Shown here one piece after another: positions 21,450 through 24,790 of a DNA stretch of 64,000 nt (position 1 is its first letter; the number at the start of each line of letters is the position of its first letter). A program made the position numbers and the translations under genes. A model generated the notes under the pieces. It worked only from the letters and a program-made list of their open reading frames with translations, made no database searches and had not been told where the DNA came from. Source of the stretch: Bryobacteraceae bacterium (lineage in GTDB: Bacteria; Acidobacteriota; Terriglobia; Bryobacterales; Bryobacteraceae); contig BPGE01000001.1 of the NCBI GenBank assembly GCA_026002875.1, positions 1,426,001 through 1,490,000 of the forward strand. The letters run 5' to 3'.

Positions 21450-21947
21450 GGTGGGATGATGCTACAGGCCGGGGAGCTGCCGCGTCAAGGCCCGAACGCC
21501 AGCCTGAGCCTCCGGAAGCAGCCGGGTGCGGAGATTACCCCGAAACGGCCCAGCCACGTCAGGCAGGCAGGAACTTGCCCGGGCGCGCTAACGCATGGAA
21601 GATCAGCAACCATGACAATCGCCGCACGTCCGGAGCCGCGGGTGGAGTGCCGAAGGCATGCAACAGGCTGCCCTCCGCAGTGCTGACAGCACCCCGCCAG
21701 CGCGGCGTTTTCGAGGGAGCGATCCTCCGCACTCCATCCTGCCCCTCCGGCCGGTGGTCAAGGGAGCGGTCACGCGCTCAGACCCGCGCGGCCTTCGCCA
21801 CCGGGCGATCTAGCAGAGCGGAAGCCCGGCGGACGGCTTCCCGGAGGGAGAGAATCAGGCAAGAGCGGGAGAGGATTGGAGTGTTGTTTGCACCGCAGTT
21901 GAAGAAGCCTGTGGGCAGCGCCATTGCCTGGAAAAGGATCTGAAACA
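21450..21947. other. Intergenic region without a recognisable gene or RNA
   Basis: These 498 bases separate the divergent propeller and aldo/keto reductase genes. I looked for riboswitch-like or tRNA-like structure and found none I could support; the open frames are short and unlike known proteins. Confidence 0.5.
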
Positions 21948-23095
21948 ATGAAACACCACCCCTCCCGCCGGAATTTCATCGCCGCCGGGCTGACCGTGCC
22001 GGCAGCCACGTTCACCCCACGCAGGGATTTGGAGCCACAGGCGGCCAAGACGGGCTCGATCCCGCTTGCTGACCGGACGCTCGGCAAGACCGGACTGAAG
22101 GTGACGACGGTCGGATTCGGCTGCATGGTGACGACGGATGCCAGCGTGGTGGAGCGCGGCGCCGAGATGGGCATCAACTATTTCGACACGGCGCGCGTCT
22201 ACGGCAACGGCAACAACGAGCGGATGGTGGCCAGCGCGCTGAAGGGCCGCAGACAGAAAGTCATCCTCTCGAGCAAATCCGTCGCCCGGACCGCCGCCGA
22301 GGCTCGCGCCCATCTCGAGACGAGCCTTAAAGAGCTGCAGACGGACTACCTCGACATCTGGTACATGCACTTCCGCGACAACCCGTCGGCGATCACGGAC
22401 GAACTGCTGGCCGTGTGGGAAGACGCGAAGAAGCAGGGCAAGATCCGGCACATCGGCGTGAGTACGCACAACCCGACCGCAATCGCAGACCGCGTGATCG
22501 AGACCGGCAAGATCGAGGTGGTGCTGTCGGTCTGCAACTTCGCCATCGGCGCGGCGCACGATGCGGCGTTCGAGCGGCTGCACAAGGCAGGCATCGGGCT
22601 GGTGGCGATGAAGGTGATGGCGCCGGCCAGCCGGGCGTTCGGGTTCAAGAGCAGCGGTGAACACATGAGCAAGCCCGGCGGCGCGCTGGCGGCGCTGAGG
22701 TGGGTGCTGAAGGACCAGCGCTTCGCCACGGCGATCCCTGGCATGGCCGACATGGAGCAGCTGGAAGAAAACTCCGCGCCATGGCGGAGCGCTTCGAGCC
22801 GCGCGACGAGAAGCTGCTGGCGCAGATCAATGAAGAGATCCGGCCGCTGTACTGCCGCATGTGCTACCGCTGCACGGGGCAATGCCCGCAAGGCGCGGCG
22901 ATCCCGGAGACCCTGCGGTATCTGTCTTACGCCGATTTCTACGGGCAGTTCGCGCTGGGGCGCGAGCACTTTGCCGCGCTGCCCGAGCGCCACCGCAGGA
23001 TTCGCTGCCAGGATTGCCCGCAATGCGCGGTGCGCTGCCCCAACGGCGTGCATGTGGCCGAGCGCATGATCCGAGCGCAGGCGTTGTTCGCCTGA
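21948..23095 (+). pseudogene. Tat-exported aldo/keto reductase with C-terminal Fe-S domain, interrupted by a frameshift
   Basis: The N-terminal part (about 275 residues) has a twin-arginine signal (H-P-S-R-R-N-F-I), the TIM-barrel start L-G-K-T-G-L-K-V, the catalytic FDTARVYG region and the Lys/His segments of aldo/keto reductases. Near 22768-22775 the frame must change by one base. The second part then continues intact for about 105 residues with two ferredoxin-like cysteine groups (CRMCYRCTGQC and CQDCPQCAVRC), the usual C-terminal module of Fe-S aldo/keto reductases. One missing base after GAAGAAAAC would explain it (expected E-N-L-R-A-M). It could be a recent inactivating mutation, a sequence error, or recoding; no canonical slippery heptamer is present. 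Residues on both sides look well conserved, favouring an error or a very recent event. Confidence 0.8.
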
Positions 23096-23140
23096 GGGAA
23101 GGCCGTCCCGTTCCGGCTTGCACGCTCCGGTCCCTCAGGC
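23090..23140. terminator. Possible bidirectional terminator between convergent genes
   Basis: A perfect 9-bp inverted repeat (GCCTGAGGG at 23090-23098 and CCCTCAGGC at 23132-23140) with a 33-base loop lies between the end of the aldo/keto reductase and the read-through end of the rhodanese gene. No T-run is present on either side, so termination activity is uncertain. Confidence 0.35.
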
Positions 23141-23144
23141 CGCC

Positions 23145-23552
23145 TCAGCGCTTCCCGGGTTCGGTGCGGATCGCGCTTCCGCCCTTCTGCCGCTTCACCG
23201 ATTCCAGCCCGCAGGAGCCGGCCGTCCGGTATCCCTTCTCCTGGAGGAACGCCGCCGCACGGGCGGCGCGGCCACCCTGCGTTCAAAGGGTGACGATCAC
23301 CTTGTCTTTGGGAATCTCTCTGAGCCGCGCCGGCAGCTGGCTCACGGGAATGTTCACGTAGCCTTTCACCGAGCCCAGCATCTGGATCTCGGACGGCTCG
23401 CGGACATCGAGAAAGAACACCTTGTCCGGCTGCTCCAGCAGCTTGGCCAGCTCCTCGGCGCTCAGTTCCTTCACCTTGCCCGCAGGCTGCGCGCAGGCGA
23501 AGGCGAACGCCAGCACGGAAGCCAGCACGCAGGCCCAGCAGAATGCCCTCAT
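23145..23552 (-). CDS. Exported rhodanese with in-frame TGA at the catalytic cysteine (candidate selenoprotein)
   Basis: From the ATG at 23552 the frame gives a hydrophobic export signal (C20 near its end might be lipidated) and the first two thirds of a rhodanese domain, with the LDVREPSEI motif. It ends with K-D-K-V-I-V-T-L at an in-frame TGA (23283-23285, codon 90). Reading on in the same frame gives T-Q-G-G-R-A-A-R-A-A-A-F-L-Q-E-K-G-Y-R and continues to a TGA at 23145-23147, total 135 codons. In rhodaneses the residue at exactly this point is the catalytic Cys of the CxxGxR loop, so TGA sits at the sulfur-carrying position. Either it encodes selenocysteine or a TGC codon mutated to TGA. 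GC-rich hairpins can be drawn just downstream, but they are not diagnostic of a SECIS. Confidence 0.7.
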
Positions 23553-23578: not shown

Positions 23579-24790
23579 ATGCAGTTGGGCACAGCCACGG
23601 ACGAGTTCTACCGGATTGCAAAATTGCCGCCTTATGTTTTTGCCGTCGTCAATGAAATGAAGGCGCGGCTGCGCGCGCAGCAGTACGACGTCGTCGATTT
23701 CGGCATGGGCAATCCCGACGGGGCGACTCCGCGGCCTGTCGTCAACAAGCTCATCGAAGCCGCCCGCAATCCGCGCAACCACCGCTACTCGGTCTCGCGC
23801 GGCATTCCCAATCTGCGGCTGGAAATCTGCCGCCGCTACGAGCGCAACTATGGCGTCTCCCTCGACCCCGAGACCGAGGCCATTGTCACCATCGGCGCCA
23901 AGGATGCGCTCGCCCACCTGATGTTCGCCGTCATCGGTCCCGGCGACGAGGTCGTCACGCCCGCCCCGTGCTACCCGATCCACCAGTACGGCGTCATCAT
24001 GGCCGAAGGCCACGCCGCGCCCCTGCCCGTGGCCGATCCCGCTGAATACCTCAACCGCCTGGAAGACCACTTCCGCAGGGCGTCCAAGCCGCCCCGCCTC
24101 ATCCTGCTCAACTACCCGCACAACCCCACCACGGCCTGCGTGGATCTCGATTTCTTCCGCCACGTCGTCGCCCTCGCGCACCGGCATGGCTCGATGATCC
24201 TGCACGACTTCGCCTACGCCGATCTCTGCTTCGACGGCTACCGCGCCCCCAGCATCCTGCAGGTGGAAGGCGCCAAAGACGTGGCCGTCGAGATTTTCTC
24301 GATGACGAAAAGCTATAACATGGCCGGTTGGCGCGTCGGCTTCTGTCTCGGAAATGCCCGCATGATCAAGGCCCTGGCCCGCATCAAGAGCTATCTGGAT
24401 TACGGCAATTTCCAGCCCATTCAGATCGCCGCCATCATCGGCCTCCGCGACTGCGAAGAGGAGGTCGGCAGGATCTGCCATGTTTACGAGAAGCGCCGCG
24501 ACCTCCTCGTCGAAGGGCTCAACGCCGCCGGCTGGCCGGTGGAAAAGCCGCGGGCTTCCATGTTCGTCTGGGCGAAAATCCCCGCGCCGTTCGAGGAATT
24601 GCCGTCGCTGGATTTCGCCAAGCTTCTTCTGGAAAAGGCCCTCGTCGCCGTCAGCCCCGGCATCGGGTTCGGACCTGCGGGCGAGGGCCATGTCCGCTTC
24701 GCGCTGATCGAGAACCACCACCGGACGCGCCAGGCGCTGCGCTCCATCCGCCAGTTCCTGCGCGACGCCGCGCGCCGCAGGGAGCTCTGA
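23579..24790 (+). CDS. alaC: Class I/II PLP-dependent aminotransferase (AlaC-like)
   Basis: A 403-residue cytosolic fold-type I aminotransferase. Visible features are the N-terminal D-F-G-M-G-N-P-D substrate loop, the Y-S-V-S-R-G-I segment, the N-Y-P-H-N-P-T motif, and the PLP lysine in S-M-T-K-S-Y-N-M-A-G-W-R-V-G-F. Sequence style and length fit the AlaC/YfdZ group (glutamate-pyruvate aminotransferase) or the related LL-diaminopimelate aminotransferases; I favour AlaC because of the M-x-K-S-Y-x-M-A-G-W-R signature. It is divergent from the rhodanese (26-base gap) and is followed after 6 bases by a GNAT gene, so the two are likely co-transcribed. There is no clear Shine-Dalgarno sequence. Confidence 0.85.
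   Translation: MQLGTATDEFYRIAKLPPYVFAVVNEMKARLRAQQYDVVDFGMGNPDGATPRPVVNKLIEAARNPRNHRYSVSRGIPNLRLEICRRYERNYGVSLDPETEAIVTIGAKDALAHLMFAVIGPGDEVVTPAPCYPIHQYGVIMAEGHAAPLPVADPAEYLNRLEDHFRRASKPPRLILLNYPHNPTTACVDLDFFRHVVALAHRHGSMILHDFAYADLCFDGYRAPSILQVEGAKDVAVEIFSMTKSYNMAGWRVGFCLGNARMIKALARIKSYLDYGNFQPIQIAAIIGLRDCEEEVGRICHVYEKRRDLLVEGLNAAGWPVEKPRASMFVWAKIPAPFEELPSLDFAKLLLEKALVAVSPGIGFGPAGEGHVRFALIENHHRTRQALRSIRQFLRDAARRREL

Follow-up and report, generated by a model that had tools for sequence, protein, structure and literature searches.

A probable exported selenocysteine rhodanese with UGA at the catalytic cysteine position in Acidobacteriota

Introduction

The gene described here raises a simple question. 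When the frame of a rhodanese stops at TGA exactly where the catalytic cysteine belongs, is the gene broken or is the codon read as an amino acid, and what would the complete protein do? The gene lies in a window of 64,000 nucleotides (the whole stretch of DNA analysed; contig BPGE01000001.1 of assembly GCA_026002875.1) from a Bryobacteraceae bacterium with a closed genome, a single contig of 4,863,736 bases. Judged from sequence, the gene very probably encodes a single-domain rhodanese whose UGA codon 90 specifies selenocysteine (Sec); the protein is probably exported and may act in sulfur transfer. Conservation of the TGA, the Sec machinery, a covarying RNA stem and selection downstream of the codon strongly support the recoding; export, substrate and reaction are what we infer for the protein.

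The gene and its internal TGA

23145..23552, minus strand: probable Sec-rhodanese gene, 135 residues, Sec as residue 90 (read-through translation, Pfam, structural model)
23283..23285, minus strand: in-frame TGA at the catalytic Cys position of CxxGxR (conservation in at least 42+33 genomes)
23493..23552, minus strand: probable export signal, residues 1-20 (hydrophobic N-terminus by eye, also in relatives)

On the minus strand, the frame runs from an ATG at 23552 to a terminal TGA at 23147-23145. Translation of the frame (23552-23145) gives 135 residues with one in-frame TGA, residue 90, at 23285-23283, past which 45 codons are still open as far as 23145. Retranslation returned the same open reading frame, TGA and 45-codon extension as the initial annotation, which had also placed the TGA exactly at the Cys of CxxGxR. 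The read-through protein matches the Pfam family Rhodanese (PF00581; residues 31-109, E 1.6e-13, 51.4 bits against a gathering cut-off of 22.2), and the TGA does lie at this Cys. Compared with CxxGxR, the active-site motif as read, UTQGGR, has U in first position. The protein thus lacks the catalytic Cys that is usual in rhodaneses, a UGA codon standing in its place, and close homologues have Cys there.

The AlphaFold2 model of the protein has a mean pLDDT of 81.9, and its top PDB match is a rhodanese-domain chain (E 8e-9). The nearest solved sequences and folds are rhodanese domains, among which those of CoA-disulfide/persulfide reductases rank first (3icr, 3nta; 34-36% identity). The N-terminus, hydrophobic as judged by eye, suggests that the protein is probably exported, or a lipoprotein.

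Conservation of the codon and of the protein

When 150 family genomes were searched, at least 42 gave a TGA-bearing match, and the codon, read in all 42, is TGA at the residue-90 position in each. Of the 30 loci L009-L038, 27 are of this kind and three (L031, L034 and L038) are TGC forms; 15 more TGA loci are L095-L109; a named record supplies a 43rd TGA locus (L052). Wider searches took in 297 genomes of the phylum and 250 of the class. From these, 37 loci were read, and 33 have TGA at the same codon, the other four being of other types. Ten of the 33 outside genomes are G361; G193, G229 and G239; G289, G366, G382 and G414; G226; and G244, while the remaining 23 belong to families f82, f84, f87 and f88. 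Five extra phylum loci were checked, of which L186, L187, L189 and L190 are not of the same type. In total, at least 75 genomes in ten family codes (the bacterium's own family and nine others) have TGA at this codon. The initial annotation had considered a chance stop at this residue unlikely; a TGA kept in dozens of genomes excludes chance.

Two alignments were used. The alignment of 57 rows (A2) has TGA at residue 90 in 41 rows and Cys in 16. It leaves out L022 (cut by a contig end), L109 (internal N stretch), L110 (second piece, from the genome of L022), L119a (same gene as L023), L126 (cut) and the Ser forms L122, L123, L125 and L127. The alignment of 28 loci (A1) leaves out L047-L051 (duplicate genomes) and the three TGC forms. 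On the 57-row tree, at least six changes between Sec and Cys are needed, two of them forced by well-supported branches, with gain and loss indistinguishable; a single Sec clade is marginally rejected (p-AU 0.045). In one genome (G103, L119), a Sec and a Cys rhodanese gene follow each other directly on the minus strand (495-899 and 913-1305), as a tandem pair. The Ser forms are rhodanese-like relatives with an active-site Ser (SNHAAR), thus neither Cys nor Sec.

Selection was compared before and after the TGA. Five loci of one genus give a pN of 0.085 for the upstream part and 0.084 for the downstream part, so the protein is about as conserved after the TGA as before it. The ratio pN/pS is greater downstream, both in these five loci (0.20 vs 0.14) and in eleven loci (0.36 vs 0.26). 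In the five, this excess arises because synonymous change is lower there (pS 0.415 downstream vs 0.598 upstream), as is expected of a coding sequence that also contains an RNA element. After the TGA, the frame continues for 41-60 codons to the next stop in 27 of 28 loci, the exception, L022, being cut by its contig end. The absence of decay in the downstream half, on which the initial annotation had relied, is upheld by the similar pN and the open codons. The comparison with homologues that it had proposed gave TGA or Cys at the codon, again with an undecayed downstream half.

Selenocysteine machinery

C1:4791863-4791954, host genome: tRNA-Sec, 75.5 bits (ARAGORN: tRNA-SeC, anticodon tca)

The search for selA, selB, selD and tRNA-Sec, also proposed in the initial annotation, found the complete set in the host genome. 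Besides the tRNA, it encodes SelA (500.3 bits), SelB (354.1 bits, above the cut-off) and SelD (354.5 bits, with one in-frame TGA). SelD (G000:C1:3321497-3322402) is a second probable selenoprotein of this genome, with the motif G-U-A-S-K and its TGA at 2374-2376 of L061, minus strand. Other SelD proteins have Sec or Cys at this position.

In the family, tRNA-Sec is common anyway (118 of 150 genomes at E 1e-9). It occurs in 40 of the 42 TGA-form genomes vs 78 of the 108 without a listed TGA form (Fisher p 0.0015, kinship ignored). The two TGA genomes without a tRNA-Sec match, G086 and G114, have selA, and G143, the sole TGA genome without a selA match (E 1e-60), has the tRNA. Among the matches listed, nine genomes have neither tRNA-Sec nor selA (G016, G017, G024, G037, G048, G051, G066, G072 and G075), and a TGA form is listed for none of them. 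TGA-free homologues are present in four of these genomes (L114, L124, L126 and L128).

Natural recoding also includes tRNA-Sec-like tRNAs with a different charging, by which the UGA might be decoded as Cys or another residue. The inserted residue cannot be told from sequence alone, which leaves room for such a tRNA; here, however, tRNA-Sec is accompanied by both SelA and SelD, the latter with its own in-frame TGA, and we consider decoding as another residue very unlikely. Insertion of Sec at UGA codon 90, which we infer from the comparisons, is in our view nearly certain.

Candidate SECIS element

23250..23268, minus strand: candidate bacterial SECIS, 7-bp stem, loop CGUGC at 23261-23257 (covariation across relatives)

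Counted from the TGA, the putative stem pairs columns 18-24 with 30-36 around the loop CGUG[C/U] in the 28 aligned loci. Of the 196 stem cells in these TGA loci, 89.8% are paired. Both-sided changes occur in 23 cells vs 9.2 +/- 1.9 in shuffles, none of 500 shuffles being as high (kinship ignored), and sliding the partner by one to three columns leaves 0 to 2 such cells. Two of five covariation measures stay at shuffle level, namely the pairs changed on both sides (3 vs 2.7) and the pair types (5 vs 5.1). The three pairs with both-sided changes connect third codon bases (codons +5/+11, +6/+10 and +7/+9). Pair 24-30 is G-C in 15 loci and C-G in 13, and pair 21-33 is C-G, U-G or U-A; both connect third bases of mostly Ala codons. 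Pair 18-36 swaps too, yet it is unpaired in 11 of the 28 loci, and pair 19-35 is unpaired in eight. RNAalifold on its own proposes the inner five pairs. The loop is formed by the Arg codon at +8, and all 28 loci have CGT there, unlike the Arg codons at -39, -14 and +5, which are mixed; upstream GC3 averages 77%.

Loci from which the structure was not drawn, i.e., L095-L109 and those outside the family, provide a fairer test. The loop CGUG[C/U] is kept in 12/15 of L095-L109 and overall in 40/43 family loci (L110 excluded). Outside the family, the loop CGYGC is kept in 33/33, and several of these loci form only part of the seven pairs. Three TGA forms, L098, L104 and L106, lack the consensus stem and loop. 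L098 and L104 offer an alternative stem with a bulged base (z -2.3 and -0.9), perhaps a second type of SECIS; the fold of L106 is no better than shuffles (z -0.23).

The accessible part of PMC13188914 sets limits for bacterial SECIS elements: a loop of 3-9 nt with a G in its first two positions, a stem of 4-16 bp, 16-37 nt from UGA to loop and an MFE of -7.5 kcal/mol or lower. Compared with these, the candidate passes, having a 5-nt loop (G second), a 7-bp stem and a spacing of 21 nt. In a 32-nt stretch, the proposed stem is the best fold (8 bp, -17.8 kcal/mol) with an unremarkable energy (z -0.57), and over the window's 60 nt after the TGA the MFE structure is another hairpin (columns 5-15 with 19-30, z -1.69). 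Support for the proposed stem is thus comparative in kind. A SECIS element, for which the initial annotation had suggested a prediction, is backed by covariation and by the published limits; it is weakened by the three deviating family loci and by the different MFE fold of the 60 nt.

Could the gene nevertheless be an ordinary rhodanese truncated by a nonsense mutation or a sequencing error? The standard code does end the frame at the TGA, giving a product of 89 residues from the ATG. The same TGA in 75 genomes, the conservation of the protein on both sides and the covarying RNA stem contradict truncation, and the conservation of the codon across genera and families rules it out; we give this explanation practically no weight. 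The gene is almost certainly intact, since many relatives keep the UGA, the RNA signal and the Sec machinery.

Proposed decoding and reaction

23211..23213, minus strand: Cys114 codon, 24 residues past Sec, possible resolving partner (alignment counts)

If the UGA is decoded as Sec, SelA would make Sec from selenophosphate supplied by SelD, and the stem-loop at nt 18-36 from the UGA would recruit SelB with Sec-tRNA(Sec). Termination competes at any UGA-Sec codon, and the UGA could on this account act as a switch, giving, when selenium is scarce, a short product with a role of its own. Such a product of 89 residues would lack the active-site loop and everything past strand 85-90 of the model, which makes a switch extremely improbable.

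In the folded Sec protein, the selenolate would take the place of the usual thiolate in the CxxGxR loop. It would most likely attack a sulfane sulfur (thiosulfate, polysulfide or persulfide) outside the cytoplasm, and the resulting Se-S(n)H intermediate would hand its sulfur to an acceptor thiol. For this sulfur-transfer role as worded, a Sec that attacks sulfane sulfur outside the cytoplasm and passes the sulfur on, we see an even balance of chances.

A second conserved residue suggests another role. The column of Cys114 holds Cys in 37 of 41 Sec rows vs 8 of 16 Cys rows (Fisher p 0.002). Outside the family, this Cys is present in 28 of 33 Sec loci, one at +25; the five without it all belong to family f82 and have GG instead. 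Other aligned rhodaneses have the first Gly of GG at this position. The model places Sec90 and Cys114 at, or adjoining, the ends of strands 85-90 and 109-115, which are presumably neighbours in the rhodanese sheet. Once the Sec has attacked a persulfide or polysulfide, Cys114 might then resolve the selenium intermediate to a selenenylsulfide reduced by an external thiol system, which would make the protein more of a reductase than a transferase. The excess of Cys in Sec rows, its presence in the outside loci and the modelled positions of the two residues fit such a redox pair. Against it, nine Sec loci have no such Cys (4/41 aligned and 5/33 outside), it is also present in half of the Cys rows, and a tree test of the link between Sec and Cys114, with two usable independent pairs on well-supported branches, did not show one beyond kinship. 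We therefore treat the redox pair as a tentative alternative. It is with similar caution that we suggest that Acidobacteriota may possess an exported Sec90/Cys114 rhodanese by which persulfides or polysulfides are reduced outside the cytoplasm. It would be a selenoenzyme acting in sulfane-sulfur metabolism, of which, to our knowledge, there is no biochemically tested case.

Surroundings of the gene

23579..24790, plus strand: presumed aminotransferase, divergent, 26 bp from the rhodanese start
23090..23140, no strand assigned: perfect inverted repeat, 10-nt arms 23090-23099 and 23131-23140 (100% complementary, 31 nt apart)

The divergent neighbour is taken, from its sequence, to be an aminotransferase and the gene next to it acetyltransferase-like. 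Of 24 context loci, eight have both, and these eight all come from the same part of the tree as the window; neither gene was found in the other 16 at E 1e-20, several of these loci being cut by contig ends. The window's aldo/keto-reductase-like neighbour recurs in none of the 24 (several contig-cut). A Pfam search on 30 chosen neighbours gave a mixed picture (thymidylate kinase, ferrochelatase, glycosyl transferase, MFS transporter and others), with 4/30 having no Pfam family at E 1e-5. Among these neighbours, a nitroreductase follows in three loci, FG-GAP repeat proteins lie beside three and sigma-54 activators beside two. As the neighbours are mixed and none is conserved across clades, no functional partner was called, and substrate and pathway are accordingly without genomic support.

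Between the converging genes, the inverted repeat at 23090-23140, which the initial annotation had taken for a possible bidirectional hairpin, is real and lies just beyond the extended end of the gene. Neither strand has a T run after it. The structure, which separates two converging genes, is therefore a hairpin that lacks this feature of the classical intrinsic terminator.

The neighbour at 21924-23095 (plus strand), which we take to be an aldo/keto reductase ending in a ferredoxin-like part, occupies two different frames (21924-23069 and 22700-23095). In the five best relatives of the C-terminal portion the frame is open over 392-446 aa, which suggests that the window's copy has suffered a frameshift, either a mutation or an error in the sequence. 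The record L048, which bears the title Arcobacter sp., has an 80% identical rhodanese gene adjoining a 95% identical aminotransferase; given this pair, its organism label is probably wrong.

Relation to known rhodaneses and selenoproteins

Prediction of Sec rhodaneses in environmental surveys, mentioned in the initial annotation, is confirmed by three Sargasso sequences (PMC1088965, as available), and further rhodanese selenoproteins appear in the accessible part of PMC2398784. Five forms of rhodanese-like selenoproteins are distinguished in the portion of PMC13188914 at hand, forms 2 and 4 having UxxG. The window protein has the combination of PF00581 and UxxG found in these two forms, as UTQG. 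Form 2 is represented by MBM9537886.1, a rhodanese-related sulfurtransferase (PF00581, UxxG; PMC13188914, in part), which is COG0607 PspE form 1 in the available text of PMC9312934, where two forms of COG0607 are given in addition to others. Compared by description, form 2 and the window protein share PF00581, a Sec followed by xxG and prediction from sequence only; the possible partner Cys at +24 and the probable export signal belong to the window protein and are not in the description of form 2 in that portion of the source.

Form 4 (MCY3690685.1, UxxG; PMC13188914, in part), again compared by description, shares UxxG and a predicted bacterial SECIS. From the available parts of these sources, we equate it with COG2897 of the Sargasso survey (PMC1088965), a family of SseA type in PMC9312934. 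If so, form 4 would have two domains and the window protein has one. This comparison assumes that COG2897 proteins are two-domain.

For Acidobacteria, the accessible part of PMC1794560 gives three selenoprotein families with four selenoproteins and contains the word rhodanese once, in a reference title. 'Rhodanese' is absent from the main text of PMC12013277, and 'Acidobacteri-' from the main texts of PMC13188914 and PMC9312934. Among the matches listed in a keyword literature search, which reached few subscription journals, no title concerns this protein. As far as that search reached, a Sec rhodanese in this phylum is unseen in print; the UxxG kind is known. Added here are its apparent phylum-wide spread, its probable export and the further Cys at +24 from the Sec. 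An enzyme family with a probable Sec active site would span ten family codes within a single large phylum of environmental bacteria, each of its genes being truncated by standard gene calling. It lends itself well to the question of what advantage a rhodanese draws from selenium, and the exchange of Sec and Cys within one family, together with the Sec/Cys tandem in one genome, offers natural pairs for comparison.

The window protein reaches no NCBIfam model at its cut-off. The thiosulfate sulfurtransferases PspE and GlpE are single rhodanese domains as well; both use Cys, and PspE is exported. The window protein scores 26.4 bits with PspE (NF007627) and 19.6 bits with GlpE, below the cut-offs of 102. 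In 3icr and 3nta (CoA-disulfide reductase and NADH-dependent persulfide reductase), the rhodanese domain is the C-terminal end of long flavoenzymes and carries Cys. NF041203, rhodanese_LYCAU (form 3, CxU), is likewise a small Sec rhodanese, with the Sec two residues past a Cys, in contrast to LUTQG in the window protein. Membership was rejected on the score (32.1 bits against a cut-off of 115) and the missing CxU motif. Another rhodanese of the phylum (L190, genome G191) resembles this known form, as its TGA lies two codons past a Cys (YCAU), and CGTGC stands at the loop position downstream of its TGA as well.
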